Positions 35,579-48,779 of a DNA stretch of 64,000 bases are shown here, one piece after another; within the stretch, counting starts at the first letter, position 1, and every line of letters begins with the position of its first letter. The DNA lies in contig CP085323.1 of the NCBI GenBank assembly GCA_022870745.1, positions 3,596,001 through 3,660,000 on the forward strand. The letters run 5' to 3'. The stretch comes from Silvibacterium acidisoli. GTDB taxonomy: Bacteria > Acidobacteriota > Terriglobia > Terriglobales > Acidobacteriaceae. A program made the position numbers and the translations under genes. Under the pieces are notes generated by a model that saw only the letters and a program-made list of their open reading frames with translations, did not search any database and was not told where the DNA came from.

Positions 35579-35794
35579 ATGACTGACGCCTACAGAAGGC
35601 TTTACGACAAAGTCCTCCGTGATGAAACATTCCGCGAGTTTCTCGATGCCGACCCCAGGGCCGCGCTCGAATCGATCGAAATCAACCCCACGCCCGAGAT
35701 CATGAAGGGCGTCGAAAATACACTTAAGGCCATCCGCGAGATGCAGCGTGATTTCGGCATCGAGGATGTCGAAAAAGAGATATGCATTACTTAG
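35579..35794 (+). CDS. RiPP-type precursor peptide 1 (NHLP/Os1348-like leader)
   Basis: 71 residues after a good GAAGGAAGAAAG ribosome site. The sequence is a helical, charged leader (YRRLYDKVLRDETFREFLDA, DPRAALESI, then NPTPEIMKG) closely matching the second peptide of the locus up to the shared MQxDFG; it then ends in a short divergent tail, IEDVEKEICIT, with one Cys and a C-terminal Thr. The F-R-E-x-L and AL-x-S spacing recalls the nitrile-hydratase-leader (NHLP) clan, including Os1348-type precursors. That it is a modified peptide is inferred from its size, its paralogue and the LanM-type dehydratase two genes downstream. Confidence 0.75.
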   Translation: MTDAYRRLYDKVLRDETFREFLDADPRAALESIEINPTPEIMKGVENTLKAIREMQRDFGIEDVEKEICIT

Positions 35795-35798
35795 ACCA

Positions 35799-35819
35799 AT
35801 CTGAATAATTTATTCAGAT
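35799..35819. promoter_or_regulatory. Perfect AT-rich palindrome between the two precursor genes
   Basis: ATCTGAATAA-T-TTATTCAGAT: ten-base arms around one base, five bases after the first stop codon. It is too AT-rich and lacks a T-run for a good terminator, so an operator or RNA-processing hairpin is more likely. Confidence 0.5.
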
Positions 35820-35914
35820 ATGACTATGAATATCGTGTAGCTTCAGAATTCATTGTTGCGTTTATCGGGAGAGCTGTGGAAGTTTTTTCCAGGAAACAAA
35901 GAAAGGGATGCCAC

Positions 35915-36124
35915 ATGTCAACACTTCAACTGGTCTATGACAGGGCTCTTCTGGATAGTTCCTTCCGTGAACAACTTAGCAGCAATACCGAGCGCGCACT
36001 TGCATCGTTGGGCATTCTGCCAACTTCCGATATTGTCGATCGGGTTAAGCATGTTCTCACCGTTGTAAAGCAAATGCAGCAGGATTTCGGACAAAAATAC
36101 TTTAATGATCCAGCTGTAAGCTAG
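35915..36124 (+). CDS. RiPP-type precursor peptide 2 (NHLP/Os1348-like leader)
   Basis: 69 residues from the ATG at 35915 (AAAGGGATG upstream); the frame is open 13 codons earlier, but that part is unlike peptide 1. It aligns with peptide 1 over the leader: VYDRALLDSSFREQLSS, ERALASLGILPTSDIV, and QMQQDFG against EMQRDFG. The tail after DFG is QKYFNDPAVS, with no Cys and a single hydroxyl residue, the C-terminal Ser. Without cysteine it cannot form a lanthionine, which agrees with the absence of a LanC cyclase. It is followed by the hairpin element at 36126-36182. Confidence 0.75.
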   Translation: MSTLQLVYDRALLDSSFREQLSSNTERALASLGILPTSDIVDRVKHVLTVVKQMQQDFGQKYFNDPAVS

Positions 36125-36125
36125 T

Positions 36126-36182
36126 CTGAGGCTGGTATCACTTCCAGCCTCAGGCTTGTTCCCGGCCTGAGGCTATGTTTTT
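36126..36182 (+). promoter_or_regulatory. Mutually exclusive hairpins between precursor 2 and the enzyme genes
   Basis: Segment A CTGAGGCTGG (36126-36135), segment B CCAGCCTCAGG (36144-36154) and segment C CCTGAGGCT (36166-36174). B pairs perfectly with A (10 bp) or with C (9 bp), not both. The B:C stem is followed by ATGTTTTT, terminator-like, and also hides the GAGG that is the probable ribosome site of the next gene (ATG 36183). A ribosome at the peptide 2 stop (36122-36124) would cover A and favour B:C. It is probably an attenuator keeping peptide output above enzyme output. Confidence 0.6.
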
Positions 36183-37133
36183 ATGAGTCGTGTGGATATT
36201 GATCCGTTCAGTGCTGAGTTTAAGTCGATCGCGGAAAGCTCTGTAAGGCGTGCCGTAGCCAGTCTTGAACAGAGGGCCCCGCTATTAACGATACCCACGC
36301 TCAAATGGTTAACTACACACTGCGATATTCAGAAGCCCGAAGAATACTTCCTACATCCCAATGCGCTTACGCTTTTTTCTCTGCCCTGGTGGTTGGAGTT
36401 GAGTTTGCAACGGACGGTAGATTCTGCCTTCCAGGGCCGCCTGATGGAAGCTTCAACCAATCTCTACTACTTTGCTCGGATGCTCGACGATCTAATGGAC
36501 GGCCATCCAACAGAGAAGTCCGGCTTACCTGCGCTCTATCCTTTTCTGCTCGACTTCCAACGCATATTCTTTGAATATTTCCCTGCTTCGCATGTTTTCT
36601 GGACTTGCTTTCACCGCTATATGGATGAAACCGCGGAAGCGGCGTCCGTTGATGCATCGCTTATCGAGATCGGCGAGAAGGAATTCCGGAATATCGCAGC
36701 GCATAAGACCATCGCGGCCATGGTGCCGGTGGCGGCAGTCTGCTTCCGGTACGGGCGTGAAGATTTGCTGCCCGCGTGGGAAGACTATTTTCATAGTTTC
36801 GCTTGTTGGCATCAATTCCGTAATGATCTGCTGGGCTGGAGCGGCGATGCTGAACGCGGAGCTGTTACCTGGCTTCTTTGCGAAGCGAAACAGCGCATGA
36901 CGCTCGATGAGTCGCTTGCAATGTGGATGGGGCGCGAAGGGTTTGCCTGGGCCGGTGAGCGTCTTGCGGAGTGGATGGTAGAGATCAGGCAGAAGGCCGC
37001 CGTGCTCAACAGCTCGGAACTGCTGCGCTATCTTGATCTGCGGGATCGGCTTTGCACAGCGGAAGTCGGATTTCTTAAGCAATCTGCCAGCGCATGGGCG
37101 CGTTTGCTCGAGCCTGTTTCTGAGAAGCTCTGA
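36183..37133 (+). CDS. Class I isoprenoid-synthase-fold enzyme (terpene synthase/prenyltransferase-like)
   Basis: 316 residues, mostly helical. ARMLDDLMDGHP carries a DDxxD-type metal motif (Asp102, Asp103, Asp106). About 110 residues later, HQFRNDLLGWSGDAERG resembles the second metal motif NDxxSxxxE, with Gly218 and Asp222 in place of Ser and Glu. The spacing and length (300-350) fit class I terpene cyclases and related prenyl-diphosphate enzymes. It lies eight bases before the dehydratase gene and is probably translated with it. Whether it cyclises a diphosphate, prenylates the peptide or is a non-catalytic member cannot be told. Confidence 0.65.
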   Translation: MSRVDIDPFSAEFKSIAESSVRRAVASLEQRAPLLTIPTLKWLTTHCDIQKPEEYFLHPNALTLFSLPWWLELSLQRTVDSAFQGRLMEASTNLYYFARMLDDLMDGHPTEKSGLPALYPFLLDFQRIFFEYFPASHVFWTCFHRYMDETAEAASVDASLIEIGEKEFRNIAAHKTIAAMVPVAAVCFRYGREDLLPAWEDYFHSFACWHQFRNDLLGWSGDAERGAVTWLLCEAKQRMTLDESLAMWMGREGFAWAGERLAEWMVEIRQKAAVLNSSELLRYLDLRDRLCTAEVGFLKQSASAWARLLEPVSEKL

Positions 37134-37141
37134 GGCTGTTC

Positions 37142-38485
37142 ATGCGGATATTCGAATTGCTCACTGCGGTCATCGATAACGACATCCCGGCTTGCTCAGA
37201 AGAATCACTATCAGCAATTTACGGACTGCTGGCGCAGCAGAATGCAATTTTGGCGAACCATGAAATTCTCTCGGCAAAGGCGCGCGATGAAATGATCGGC
37301 TCCCTGAGAGAGGAATTGAAGTGGAGGGCGCGTCTACGTAACGATCCTGCGAGCCTTCATACCGCGGCTGCGCAATGGACCACAGCTCAACTCACAATGC
37401 TTCGCAGGCTGGAGCAGGATCGTGACTGTCTGCAACTGCAACTTTTTGCAGGCTGTTCAATCGGCCAGATTGTCGCGATTGCGATCGATCTTTCGGATCG
37501 CCATGATGGCGCCTGCGCGGTGGCGATCCTGTCTTTCGCTGACGGCGGGAGACTTGTTTACAAGCCACGATCGCTTGATACCGAAAGTTGGTTCTACCAG
37601 TTCCTTATCCAGGTGAACGGGCTGACCCCTCCATTTTCGTTCGCGAGCCTCAAAGTCCTGGCACGCGAGAGTTACGGGTGGGTCGAGTTCGCCCTGCACC
37701 GCACCTGCGCTTGCGAAGTCGAGCTTTACGACTACTATCGCCACGCCGGAGCTCTGCTCTGCCTGCTCCGCTTGTTGCGAGTGAGCGACTGCCACTTTCA
37801 AAACCTGATCGCCTGCGGTTCGCAGCCGGTTCTCATTGACGCAGAGACTCTTTTCCAACCTCTGACCGATGGTTCGCACGATTTTGCAATTTCCAATACC
37901 AGCATGCTGCCGGCAATGCGGCGGCCATACGATATTGGTGCGTTGAGTTGCTCGATGCCACAGCAGATCGTTCTCGATTTGCCCGGTTTCGTATGCTCTC
38001 CCGTGACACTGAATCCGCGCGAAAATCTGCCGTTCCGGGAAGATCAGGCGCGTTCTCCACATCTTTTCGTTGAACAGATGGAGGAAGGATTCTCGGCGAC
38101 CTGGCATTTTCTCTCGGAGCACCGCGCGCAGATTGCGTCCCTGCTTGACTCAGCGAGAAATCTGCCTGTGCGTGTTCTGCATCGTGATACTCCGGAGTAT
38201 TACCGCCAGATTCTTCTATTCGCGCTTGGCATGGAGACAGACAGCACACTTTCGGCCGGGGAAGTTGAGGCGCTGAGAAGATGCGAGGTTCCGCGCTTTA
38301 CGAGAATCGCGGATGAAAATCAGAACGGAGCTATTGTCTCCGGCTTCGAAGCAGTGCTGCAGGAAGTTGCAGTAATCGATGACGCCGGACTCGACAGGCA
38401 GTTGAGAATGCTCCGACTGCTTTGGACGATTTACGGAGGCATGCGGGGGATAGCGGACGAAGCAGTTAGAATGACCCCAGAATGA
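37142..38485 (+). CDS. Stand-alone LanM-type dehydratase domain (DUF4135), no cyclase
   Basis: 447 residues matching only the N-terminal dehydratase half of class II lanthipeptide synthetases. Seen: SDRHDGACAVAILSF, then LVYKPRSLDTE (Lys141), SDCHFQNLIACGS (Asp216, His218, Asn221), VLIDAETLF (Asp233) and VRVLHRDTPEYY (Arg344, Thr350). In characterised LanM enzymes the equivalents of Lys/Asp/His/Asn/Asp phosphorylate Ser or Thr, and the Arg/Thr pair removes the phosphate to give Dha or Dhb. The protein stops where the LanC-like Zn cyclase would begin. Its expected substrates are the two small peptides upstream. Its stop overlaps the ATG of the kinase gene (ATGA). Confidence 0.82.
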   Translation: MRIFELLTAVIDNDIPACSEESLSAIYGLLAQQNAILANHEILSAKARDEMIGSLREELKWRARLRNDPASLHTAAAQWTTAQLTMLRRLEQDRDCLQLQLFAGCSIGQIVAIAIDLSDRHDGACAVAILSFADGGRLVYKPRSLDTESWFYQFLIQVNGLTPPFSFASLKVLARESYGWVEFALHRTCACEVELYDYYRHAGALLCLLRLLRVSDCHFQNLIACGSQPVLIDAETLFQPLTDGSHDFAISNTSMLPAMRRPYDIGALSCSMPQQIVLDLPGFVCSPVTLNPRENLPFREDQARSPHLFVEQMEEGFSATWHFLSEHRAQIASLLDSARNLPVRVLHRDTPEYYRQILLFALGMETDSTLSAGEVEALRRCEVPRFTRIADENQNGAIVSGFEAVLQEVAVIDDAGLDRQLRMLRLLWTIYGGMRGIADEAVRMTPE

Positions 38486-40740
38486 TCGGGCAAGTCATTG
38501 GACATTATCAGATCCAGGAGCTTCTGGCTGAAGGAGCCATGGGCGTTGTTTACAAGGCCCGCGACCTGAACCTGGAGCGCTCCGTCGCCATCAAGGTGCT
38601 CAAGTCGAGTCAGACCTCCGACGAGCACGCCACCCGCCGCTTCATCCATGAGGCGCGGGCCGCCTCGTCTCTCGATCACCCCAATGTATGCACCATCTAC
38701 GAGATCGAGACTGCGTCCAGCGGACAGCTCTTCATCGCCATGGCCTATTACGAGGGCGAAACATTGCGCCGCAAGCTCGCACGCGGTCCGCTGGTGATGG
38801 AAGACGCTTTGCAGCACACCATCGATGTGGCTCACGGCCTGGCCAAGGCGCATCGCCACGGACTGGTGCATCGCGATATCAAGCCTGAAAACGTCATCGT
38901 CACGGATGACGGCATTGCCAAGATCCTGGACTTCGGGCTGGTCAAACTCACACAGAACACACCGGCGATCCAACCCGGAGGCTACGCGGGAACGATGGCG
39001 TACATGTCTCCCGAGCAGATTCAAGGTTTCGCCGATCCGCGCAGCGATATCTGGTCGTTAGGGGTAGTGCTCTACGAGATGGTCACCGGCCGTCGTCCGT
39101 TCCAGGGGCGCGGCGCGGAACTGATGCTGGCCATCGAGACGGGAAGCTTCGCGCCTGTGACCGAATCGCGTGAGGGAGCTTTGCCCGAGGTGCAGCGCGT
39201 CGTTGCGCGTGCCCTTGCCAAGTCGCCCGAAGACCGCTACCAGCGCGCGGAAGAGATGCTTGCGCATCTGCATGCAGCGCGCCATGGCATCGATCTGCCG
39301 ACTGTCTTCGGCGCTTCTGACGGAGCGAAGGGCCCAACGTCCATCGTCGTGCTGCCGTTTGGCAATGTCGGCGGAGGCGCCGACACGGAGTATTTCAGTG
39401 ACGGGCTAACGGATGAGCTGATTCACCTGCTCTCTCAGTTGCAGGGTCTTCGCGTCGTTTCTCATACCTCGGCCTTCGGCTTCAAGGGGAAGGAGCGCAA
39501 CGTTCGCCAGATCGCGGAGCAGTTAAACGTCGATACGATTCTCGATGGAAGTGTTCGCTGGTCGGAGAACAAGCTTCGCGTGACCGTGCAGCTGACCGAC
39601 GCCCGTACCGGCTACCAGATCTGGTCGCAGAAATACGACCACGAGCTGAAAGACATCTTCGCTATCCAGGAAGACATCGCAAGCTCGGTTGCAGCGAAGT
39701 TCGAACGCAAAGAGAAAACCGGGCTTCCCCGGATGCATTCACGGTATGCGGGCAACGTGGACGCTCACGGTCTTTACCTGAAGGGCAGATACCACTGGGA
39801 ACAACGCACGGAAGCGAGTTTCAAACTTGCATTTCAGGCGTTTCAACAGGCCATCGAGACCGATCCGCTTTGTGCCCCGGCATATTCAGGCCTGGCTGAT
39901 TGCCATATCAGCTTTGGATACTGGGGAGTTGCTCCTCCACGTTCGGCCTGGAAAAAAGGACGGGAACTGGCATTTCAGGCTATGAGGATTGATCCCGGAC
40001 TGGCCGAAGCCGAAATCTCTCTGGCAAAGTGCGCGTTGTATGACGATCTTGACTGGCGGGAAGCAGAAGAGAGATGTCTGCGAGCAATAGAGTTGAATCC
40101 TGCGCTTTCTACTGCGCACTTCGTCTACTCGATACTTCTGCTTCAACTGGGTCGATTCGAGTCGGCCATGTTGGAATTGCGTACGGCGAGAAGGCTGGAC
40201 CCATTGTCTCCAATCGTCTGTACAGGGTTGGCATGGCCGCACTACTACGCTGGACGATATGAAGACGCTCAGGAACAGTGTGATCGGGCGTTGCAGCTCA
40301 CGCCCGATCACTTTGAAATTCCCCTGTGCATGGGACTGATTGAAGTACAGCGCGGTCAATATGCTTCGGCGGTCACGTGGCTAGAGAAATGCGTCGCCCG
40401 ATCCGGAAATAATGCCACACTGATGGGAATCCTCGGCTATGCATACGGGCTGGACGGCCGCATAGAGACCGCTCGCACCATGCGCGAGCAGCTTATCCAA
40501 TTCGGTACGCAGCGGTACATCTCTCCCATGGGGCCTGCACTCATTTCCATCGGGCTCGGCGAACTCGATACCGCCATGGACTGGATGGACAAAGCCTACG
40601 AAGCGCGCGATGCCTTCCTGGCCTACGCACGCATCTTCCCGCCGTACGATCCGCTGCGCTCCACGCCGCGTTTCCGGCTGCTGCTAGAAAAGCTCGGCCT
40701 CGCCGGAGATGTAGAGCAGCTCACCACAGATCTCTATTAA
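38482..40740 (+). CDS. Soluble Ser/Thr protein kinase with TolB-N-like and TPR regions
   Basis: 752 residues. Kinase domain ~8-270: glycine loop LLAEGAMGVVYKA, Lys38 (VAIKVLK), LVHRDIKPEN (Asp131), DFG at 149-151, APE-like MSPEQI. Next is a region resembling the TolB N-terminal/adenylate-cyclase-associated domain (SIVVLPFGNVGGG, then YFSDGLTDELIHLLSQLQGL, DTILDGSVRWSENKLRV; ~290-400), then TPR-like helical repeats to the end. No membrane helix is evident, unlike many bacterial PknB-type kinases. This kinase-TolB-TPR layout is abundant in Acidobacteriota. The start codon overlaps the dehydratase stop, which places it in the peptide operon; a role there is inference. Confidence 0.9.
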   Translation: MIGQVIGHYQIQELLAEGAMGVVYKARDLNLERSVAIKVLKSSQTSDEHATRRFIHEARAASSLDHPNVCTIYEIETASSGQLFIAMAYYEGETLRRKLARGPLVMEDALQHTIDVAHGLAKAHRHGLVHRDIKPENVIVTDDGIAKILDFGLVKLTQNTPAIQPGGYAGTMAYMSPEQIQGFADPRSDIWSLGVVLYEMVTGRRPFQGRGAELMLAIETGSFAPVTESREGALPEVQRVVARALAKSPEDRYQRAEEMLAHLHAARHGIDLPTVFGASDGAKGPTSIVVLPFGNVGGGADTEYFSDGLTDELIHLLSQLQGLRVVSHTSAFGFKGKERNVRQIAEQLNVDTILDGSVRWSENKLRVTVQLTDARTGYQIWSQKYDHELKDIFAIQEDIASSVAAKFERKEKTGLPRMHSRYAGNVDAHGLYLKGRYHWEQRTEASFKLAFQAFQQAIETDPLCAPAYSGLADCHISFGYWGVAPPRSAWKKGRELAFQAMRIDPGLAEAEISLAKCALYDDLDWREAEERCLRAIELNPALSTAHFVYSILLLQLGRFESAMLELRTARRLDPLSPIVCTGLAWPHYYAGRYEDAQEQCDRALQLTPDHFEIPLCMGLIEVQRGQYASAVTWLEKCVARSGNNATLMGILGYAYGLDGRIETARTMREQLIQFGTQRYISPMGPALISIGLGELDTAMDWMDKAYEARDAFLAYARIFPPYDPLRSTPRFRLLLEKLGLAGDVEQLTTDLY

Positions 40741-40749
40741 GCAGCAAAG

Positions 40750-40783
40750 AAAATGGCGGCTCCGTTGGGAGCCGCCATTTTTA
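40750..40783. terminator. Bidirectional terminator between the kinase and amylase genes
   Basis: AAAATGGCGGCTCC-GTTG-GGAGCCGCCATTTTT: a 14-bp stem with an A-run on one side and a T-run on the other, between two converging genes. Confidence 0.9.
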
Positions 40784-40792
40784 TTACGACGC

Positions 40793-47513: not shown

Positions 47514-48779
47514 ATGGCGGCGACAGCACATGACGCGGTTTCGCAAGCAGCGGACAAAAAACGCTCCAGCGTCCGCGCCTTGGAATGGACCAACTTCTTT
47601 CTTGCCGACGTGCAGGCGGGACTTGGTCCATTCGTCGCTGCCTATCTGGCAAGTATCGGCTGGCAAGCAGGCGCAGTCGGTCGCGCACTAACGTTCGGCG
47701 GAATTGTCACCGTTGTTCTCCAAACGCCAGCCGGATGGATCGTCGATCGCGCTACACGGAAGAGGCTCATCTTGGTCGCGGGGAGCATTGTTCTCGCTCT
47801 CGGCGCTGTTCTGTTCGCCCTCTCGGGACGCGGCAGTGTGGTCTATACGGCACAGGGATTGATTGGTCTAGCGGGACCTTTCTTAGGGCCGACCGTCGCT
47901 GCCATCACGATGGGTCTTGTCGGCAGCAAACTCTTCGATTGTCAGTTTGGCCGCAACCAGGGCTTCAATGCGGGCGGCAACCTATTCGCGGCTGCGGTGA
48001 TCGCTGCCACGTCACACTACCTTGGCAATCGGGCGATCTTCTACGCCGTCGCCATCCTCGTACTTCCGACCATCATCGCGACCCTGCTGATCAAACGCGA
48101 CGACATCGACTTTGATCTGGCACGCGGTGGCTGCGAGGACGGGAAGGCCGAGGGCGGTGACAAAGCTGTCCTGCTAAACCTCGCGAAAGATCGCGTGCTC
48201 CTGGCCTTTCTGGCATGCGCCTTTCTCTTCCACTTCGCAAACGCTGCCATGCTCCCGCAACTCGGTGAGCTTCTAGCTCACGGGTCGCCAAAAGCGGCTG
48301 CCCCCTTTATGGGTGCATGCATAGCGATAACGCAGATTGTCATGCTTTGCACCTCCGCTTACTTCGGTAAGTTCGCGAATCAGAATGGTCGCAAGCGGAT
48401 TCTTCTTGCTGGGTTCGCGGTTCTCCCATTCCGTGCGGCTCTCTATACGATCTTCCACGCCGTGCCTGCTTTGCTCGCAGTCCAGATCCTGGATGGCGTT
48501 GCGAATTCGATCTTCGGGGTGGTCTCAATCCTCGTTATCGCTGACCGTACGCGCGGCACCGGACGCTTCAATCTCGCTCAGGGTGCTCTTGCAACCGCCG
48601 TGGGGCTCGGAGCCGCATTGAGCAACACCTTCGGGGGAACTTTGATGGAGAAGGCTGGTTATCGCACATCGTTTCTAGCTCTGGGTGGCGTCGCATGCCT
48701 CGCGACTCTGCTCCTCTTCTTCGCCGTTCCCGAGACCGTTCATGGAGCTACTAGTTCTCCGCAACCCGCACAAGGATAA
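47514..48779 (+). CDS. MFS transporter
   Basis: 421 residues with about twelve membrane helices in two halves. The loop between helices 2 and 3 has the MFS signature form GWIVDRATRKRLILVAGSI, and the equivalent in the second half is GKFANQNGRKRILLAGFA. The opening WTNFFLADVQAGLGPFVAAY is typical of a family often annotated simply as MFS transporter. The substrate is unknown. It is the third gene of the sigma54-driven unit, which suggests export or uptake of a compound tied to the sensed signal. Confidence 0.9.
   Translation: MAATAHDAVSQAADKKRSSVRALEWTNFFLADVQAGLGPFVAAYLASIGWQAGAVGRALTFGGIVTVVLQTPAGWIVDRATRKRLILVAGSIVLALGAVLFALSGRGSVVYTAQGLIGLAGPFLGPTVAAITMGLVGSKLFDCQFGRNQGFNAGGNLFAAAVIAATSHYLGNRAIFYAVAILVLPTIIATLLIKRDDIDFDLARGGCEDGKAEGGDKAVLLNLAKDRVLLAFLACAFLFHFANAAMLPQLGELLAHGSPKAAAPFMGACIAITQIVMLCTSAYFGKFANQNGRKRILLAGFAVLPFRAALYTIFHAVPALLAVQILDGVANSIFGVVSILVIADRTRGTGRFNLAQGALATAVGLGAALSNTFGGTLMEKAGYRTSFLALGGVACLATLLLFFAVPETVHGATSSPQPAQG

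Follow-up and report, generated by a model that had tools for sequence, protein, structure and literature searches.

The window analysed here, 64,000 nucleotides of Silvibacterium acidisoli contig CP085323.1 (positions 3,596,001 to 3,660,000, forward strand), contains a five-gene operon encoding two small peptides, an isoprenoid-synthase-fold enzyme, a DUF4135 dehydratase and a Ser/Thr kinase. With belief and doubt in about equal parts, we propose that it is an operon for a ribosomally synthesized and post-translationally modified peptide (RiPP) whose chemistry falls on the very C-terminus of the peptide and is carried out jointly by DUF4135 and IPS, our short name for the trans-isoprenyl-diphosphate-synthase-fold protein of the operon. 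The proposal starts from the fold of IPS, its family link, its motifs, the conserved gene block and a rule that the peptides end in Ser or Thr. An earlier note, made from the letters of this DNA, had described two paralogous peptides and three enzyme genes on one strand, with an 8-base gap and an ATGA overlap, and this layout is confirmed; on the plus strand, in this order, lie:

35579..35794, plus strand: pepA, a 71-amino-acid (aa) NHLP-like precursor peptide ending ...EKEICIT
35915..36124, plus strand: pepB, a 69-aa NHLP-like precursor peptide ending ...NDPAVS, a paralogue of pepA
36183..37133, plus strand: IPS, a trans-isoprenyl-diphosphate-synthase-fold protein, proposed peptide prenyltransferase
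36486..36500, plus strand: first aspartate-rich motif of IPS, D102-D-L-M-D106
36822..36848, plus strand: second aspartate-rich region of IPS, N214-D-L-L-G...D222
37142..38485, plus strand: DUF4135, a stand-alone LanM-type dehydratase domain without the LanC part
37496..38191, plus strand: dehydratase active-site residues D119 to T350 of the DUF4135 protein, from alignments
38482..40740, plus strand: Ser/Thr protein kinase with TPR repeats, proposed regulator

The order peptide-IPS-DUF4135-kinase recurs in four further genomes from the window's genus (loci L008 to L011), and because it is kept there in different surroundings the block is counted as one conserved unit, which bears out the idea that these genes act together as a RiPP-type system. 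IPS, DUF4135 and the kinase are the only genes of at least 90 aa common to the window and the other four loci (27-kb stretch, E 1e-15), with pairwise identities across the five loci of 43-58%, 33-51% and 53-71%, respectively. Beyond the block, L008 and L010 have in common an exporter-like gene upstream and two more neighbours, and L009 and L011 have one downstream gene in common. Peptide, IPS and DUF4135 go together within the genus: of nine genomes compared, five have all three, and the four that have none of them are only 72-88% complete. The IPS query matched six of 300 family genomes, five of them, the window's own included, belonging to the window's genus; a profile of IPS group A2 found the same six among 328 genomes of the order and two among 396 of the phylum, both from the window's genus. 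Scanning genome contigs gave 30 pattern matches that resolved into five loci, L018 alone being new, while 45 pattern matches on viral contigs contained no relative by tblastn and plasmids gave no IPS match. The genome to which the window belongs has a single DUF4135 gene and two matches to the peptide profile, both at the operon.

The paralogous peptides PepA and PepB consist of an NHLP-like N-terminal part and a variable tail. They score 29.3 and 33.6 bits against the NHLP family model (cut-off 40), against which the relative L067b scores 72.3 bits, and the peptide profile matches 6lk7 (E 5.9e-5). All six peptides of the DUF4135 loci end in [ILV][ST]; these last two positions alone are conserved in the tail, and the residues before them vary. 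The terminal codons are ACT, AGC, ACC, TCC, ACC and TCC, and since Ser is encoded by codons of both kinds (AGC, TCC), the end is kept and not simply inherited letter by letter. Background proteins end in Ser or Thr in 8 of 87 cases and in [ILV][ST] in 3 of 87, and a Ser/Thr end is found in none of the 15 other IPS-associated peptides (12 of the Trp group, together with those of L012, L018 and L066, which end in Cys, Leu and Ile). This contrast, 6/6 versus 0/15, has a one-sided Fisher value of 1.8e-5, a figure that assumes independence among peptides that are in fact related. A second contrast concerns Trp, present in the last 13 residues of 12/12 sister-group peptides versus 0/9 window-group peptides; PepA and PepB contain none at all, and the one Trp of the L012 peptide lies inside its leader. 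The C-terminal Ser/Thr rule and the missing Trp go beyond what the earlier note had seen. Cys is lacking in four of the six DUF4135-locus peptides and occurs once, at position -3, in each of the remaining two; the Cys of PepA was accordingly dropped as a general acceptor. The peptide profile misses the L066 peptide and the sister-group peptides other than the two of L067, so that those were assigned by position, and the tail of the L077 peptide was taken from L026, on the same contig.

IPS has the fold of ordinary polyprenyl diphosphate synthases, and two of its relatives give weak PF00348 matches. Profile-profile comparison of the window group with the group found beside Trp-containing peptides gives a match of 99.5% probability (E 1.3e-22), and a 100/100 branch divides the two groups in a tree that is unrooted and carries a long-branch warning within the Trp group. 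Within A2, D102, M105 and D106 of the first aspartate-rich motif (DDLMD) and D215 and D222 of the second aspartate-rich region are invariant in all seven sequences. A small candidate peptide is encoded near IPS in all 19 mapped loci, from two phyla, with DUF4135 in only five of them; L028, whose surroundings are seen for about 1.5 kb only, has no recognised peptide and was left out of the 19, and L027, a near copy of L026, was not extended. Because distant relatives, too, lie near small peptides, IPS is best read as a trans-isoprenyl-diphosphate-synthase (trans-IDS)-like peptide prenyltransferase of the ComQ/PalQ/ChrPC kind. The enzyme called "terpene-synthase-like" before is thus placed in a family that has already been described, and a true terpene synthase was dropped as a candidate in view of the peptides at every mapped locus.

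A profile built from the DUF4135 proteins of all five loci matches LicM2 (E 1.7e-56) and CylM (E 2.9e-39). All nine dehydratase residues are present in the window protein (D119, H121, K141, D216, H218, N221, D233, R344 and T350, equivalent in the same order to CylM D252, H254, K274, D347, H349, N352, D364, R506 and T512), so that a dead enzyme was discarded as an interpretation. Mutations in CylM, as reported in PMC4550811, assign these residues to phosphorylation and elimination, and the four elimination residues are all kept. According to PMC10676384, excised LanM dehydratase domains are active on their own. LanC was sought as PF05147 and found in 0/6 genomes (the control matched in 1/14); together with the four of six peptides lacking Cys, this argues that lanthionine rings are not the purpose of the system. 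A search for PF13575 in the Chloroflexota genome G654 gave no match, but its control was silent as well and the result carries no weight.

The earlier note would have taken DUF4135 genes elsewhere with neither a small peptide nor a synthase beside them as a refutation, and on this point the family presents a mixed picture. DUF4135 occurs in 21 of 300 genomes, taken as the same draw as for IPS since the same handles are listed: five belong to the window's genus and have IPS, and the other 16 do not, with LanM-length frames in six and a type of about 560-610 aa in ten. The latter, a second stand-alone type at ten loci in ten family genomes (L039-L048), has no IPS; beside it in eight of the ten loci lies a haem-oxygenase-like protein of 247 aa (PF14518), the exceptions being L040 and L048, where none was found (L048 is cut by a contig end), and a Ser/Thr kinase often follows beyond. 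Its other neighbours and its 28-32% identity over the aligned part led us to drop it as the same system.

The data presented above have led us to propose a model in which the NHLP-like N-terminal part of PepA and PepB would serve as leader and the terminal Ser/Thr as target. IPS would bind an allylic prenyl diphosphate through its aspartate-rich motif and attach the prenyl moiety to the end of the peptide, in the manner of ComQ and PalQ though not onto Trp. The DUF4135 protein would phosphorylate the terminal Ser/Thr and then, as the elimination residues are present, probably dehydrate it to dehydroalanine or dehydrobutyrine (Dha/Dhb). As to order, we would place dehydration first, with the enamide carbon of Dha/Dhb attacking the allyl cation as indole does in the Trp enzymes, because this would explain a dehydratase at Ser/Thr ends and none at a Cys end, of which there is one case; at that locus, L012, the thiol would be nucleophilic enough. 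In the boldest form of this idea, which we put forward tentatively and regard as doubtful, the terminal dehydroamino acid would act as a nucleophile instead of an electrophile and be C-prenylated at its enamide carbon, so that the peptide would end in an isoprenyl amino acid or, once hydrolysed, yield an isoprenyl keto acid. The kinase would regulate.

Several points weigh against joint chemistry at the C-terminus. Dehydroamino acids at a C-terminus are fragile, and we know of no enzymatic C-prenylation of Dha or Dhb. The block is without exporter or protease, and the combination of a Cys end with no dehydratase is known from L012 only. The six DUF4135-locus peptides are related, so that 6/6 does not amount to six independent events, and L018 (Leu) and L066 (Ile), of the same IPS clade, show that a terminal Ser, Thr or Cys is no clade-wide rule. 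Sister-group peptides, those of L067 excepted, were assigned by position, and Trp occurs by chance in the last 20 residues of 34% of small open reading frames at Chloroflexota loci (179/524). The second aspartate-rich motif of the window IPS is eroded (NDLLG), Gly replacing the last Asp of DDxxD, whereas each of the remaining six A2 sequences has DDxxD or NDxxD, and in L010 the elimination residue D119 is replaced by His. Finally, the DUF4135 domain of CcaM was active only in the presence of the enzyme's cyclase domain, as described in PMC10676384.

It is unlikely, in our view, that IPS instead places its prenyl group directly on the oxygen of the terminal Ser/Thr, or on the C-terminal carboxylate as an ester, while DUF4135 phosphorylates something else, such as a prenyl alcohol. 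TolF reportedly performs forward O-prenylation of Ser/Thr, which counts for this alternative. So does the published finding that the LanM dehydratase is folded like a lipid kinase (PMC4550811), yet the window protein keeps all four elimination residues, needless for a pure kinase, and direct prenylation of the oxygen would give a complete dehydratase little to do. Quite unlikely is a route of the scaffold-peptide (pearlin) type, in which the NHLP-like peptide would be a carrier: the enzymes would elaborate its terminal residue, which would then leave as a small molecule by cleavage or hydrolysis. Conservation of the tail at its last two positions only and the lack of a protease gene in the block fit it, and hydrolysis of a C-terminal N-acylimine might free a keto acid without protease. 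We would call it decidedly improbable that DUF4135 dehydrates Ser/Thr and IPS makes a separate, unattached isoprenoid, for two molecules or a later conjugate. The ordinary polyprenyl diphosphate synthase fold and the weak PF00348 matches speak for this, while the IPS-peptide pair is constant (19/19 mapped loci) with DUF4135 in only five, and sister-group peptides have near their end the Trp that known peptide prenyltransferases need, according to PMC13290415. Chance clustering or decayed genes with no joint function, for which the partly eroded second aspartate-rich motif might be cited, is scarcely credible and already largely refuted by a block kept in five genomes with different flanks and by the joint presence or absence of peptide, IPS and DUF4135 in the genus; the retained dehydratase residues also speak against it.

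The kinase, the last gene of the block in 5/5 loci, matches two NCBIfam models, TIGR03903 (TOMM kinase/cyclase) and TIGR04510 (peptide modification cyclase), with scores well short of the cut-off in each case, and may belong to a large group of paralogues. A signalling protein often adjoins IPS genes, as the Silvibacterium loci have the kinase, and L012 and L018, from different phyla, have in common an adenylate-cyclase/AAA/TPR protein beside IPS (43% identity over 1358 aa).

Two further elements concern the borders and expression of the operon:

36119..36182, plus strand: two overlapping hairpins from the pepB end to the IPS start, from terminator scan and folding
40750..40784, plus strand: inverted repeat and T run 3' of the kinase gene, seen by eye and not listed by the terminator scan

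The hairpins exclude each other, and the second (36146-36174) is followed by ATGTTTTTAT, a T run shortly before the IPS start codon. The terminator scan found 9 terminator-like sites in the region versus 5.1 +- 2.2 in shuffles, and the hairpin fold has a z of -3.6; the hairpins are terminator- or attenuator-like and possibly act as a brake that yields more peptide than enzyme. The downstream inverted repeat is likely the operon end. The operon is bounded upstream by a gene that we take to be phosphoketolase-like and downstream by a convergent alpha-amylase gene. It had been remarked that cyclase, protease and transporter are missing: PF05147 was indeed found in none of the six genomes, and no protease or transporter gene lies inside the block itself (the whole window was not annotated). 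In two of the five loci, L008 and L010, the block is preceded by a gene whose ATPase motifs, judged by eye, mark it as an ABC-type exporter. Some 7 kb beyond the 3' end of the window operon there is a gene for an MFS transporter (window 47514-48779).

Related loci show other partners for IPS. At L012, from another Acidobacteriota genome, IPS, a peptide ending KQIC, a transmembrane terpene cyclase (TMTC, PF25129, E 1.3e-24), an FAD monooxygenase and a 2-oxoglutarate (2OG) oxygenase are packed on one strand, the cyclase and its companions standing in place of the dehydratase. The set, IPS-Cys peptide-Pyr4-type cyclase-2OG oxygenase-VioC-like FAD monooxygenase with the adjoining adenylate-cyclase/AAA/TPR gene (L012:6008-9740 and L012:9830-14113), has the look of a meroterpenoid cluster built on a ribosomal peptide and is arguably odder than the window operon. 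Terpene cyclases are absent from the window block and matched in L012 and in the fusions of IPS with squalene-hopene cyclase at L025 and L026, which adjoin ...CWAN... peptides, and indirectly in L018. Chloroflexota relatives of IPS lie mostly near peptides with Trp close to the end, some with cyclase-like proteins. One Anaerolineales locus (L067:6763-11464) has two IPS-like enzymes, two NHLP peptides ending ...CLWE and ...CTWD and what we read as a radical SAM/SPASM-like protein; a recurrent Anaerolineales set (L068-L075) combines a 71-89 aa peptide having Trp near its end with an IPS-like enzyme and, at most loci, a regulator that is presumably SARP-like. L018:12954-14921 and L066:6541-8535 encode homologous proteins of about 660 aa (28% identity) with no telling Pfam or NCBIfam match; that of L018 resembles in part the fused IPS-cyclase proteins, and both are probably a degenerate prenyltransferase plus cyclase.

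If the proposal of joint C-terminal chemistry is true, isoprenoid-synthase-fold peptide prenyltransferases would reach beyond Trp, lanthipeptide dehydration would be useful outside thioether rings, and a route would open towards peptides with modified C-termini; enamide-carbon prenylation, if it occurs, would define a class of RiPPs in which Dha/Dhb is put to a new use and trans-IDS-like prenyltransferases work without Trp. The natural series, running from Trp acceptors through a Cys end accompanied by terpene cyclase to Ser/Thr ends accompanied by the dehydratase, makes acceptor choice directly testable. Meroterpenoid logic combines a prenyltransferase, a flavin epoxidase and a Pyr4-type cyclase; L012 has the same gene set, acting there presumably on a ribosomal peptide instead of a small-molecule acceptor, and the window block has none of the meroterpenoid cyclase genes.

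Prenylated RiPPs, trans-IDS-like peptide prenyltransferases (PMC13290415), NHLP leaders with DUF4135 (PMC10676384) and a lanthionine synthetase with a prenyltransferase (mpp, PMC12715784) are each already known, so that the parts of the class that the earlier note took to be undescribed have precedents. The open-licence literature yielded neither the combination of stand-alone DUF4135, Trp-free trans-IDS-like enzyme and C-terminal Ser/Thr nor any paper joining DUF4135, isoprenoid and RiPP. According to the review PMC13290415, all characterised trans-IDS-like peptide prenyltransferases act on Trp. The window system resembles ComQ, PalQ and the ChrPC P domain in its isoprenoid-synthase fold, two aspartate-rich motifs and a gene near the precursor peptide, and relatives of IPS are joined to terpene-cyclase-like proteins by fusion or have them as neighbours; PalQ likewise requires a C-terminal acceptor (PMC13290415). 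It differs from them in its Trp-free peptides with a Ser/Thr end and its added LanM-type dehydratase, and from the ChrPC/NctPC polycyclic-isoprenoid RiPPs in having no terpene cyclase domain or gene in the block.

With class II LanM enzymes such as LicM2 and CylM it shares a DUF4135 dehydratase with phosphorylation and elimination residues, unlike them lacking the LanC part, with no LanC found in the genome and four of six peptides free of Cys. The mpp prenylated lanthipeptide likewise joins a lanthionine synthetase and a prenyltransferase in one RiPP cluster with a structured (Nif11-like) leader; it differs in its full LanM with ring formation and its ABBA-type prenyltransferase acting on Trp (PMC12715784). 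The leaders may share the fold of the Os1348 family NHLP clan peptides (6lk7; PMC7726476), whose modifying enzymes differ. Similar in its dehydration to what is proposed here is the dehydrazole system, in which, according to PMC10676384, CcaM uses DUF4135 to dehydrate an NHLP-led peptide with no lanthionine rings.

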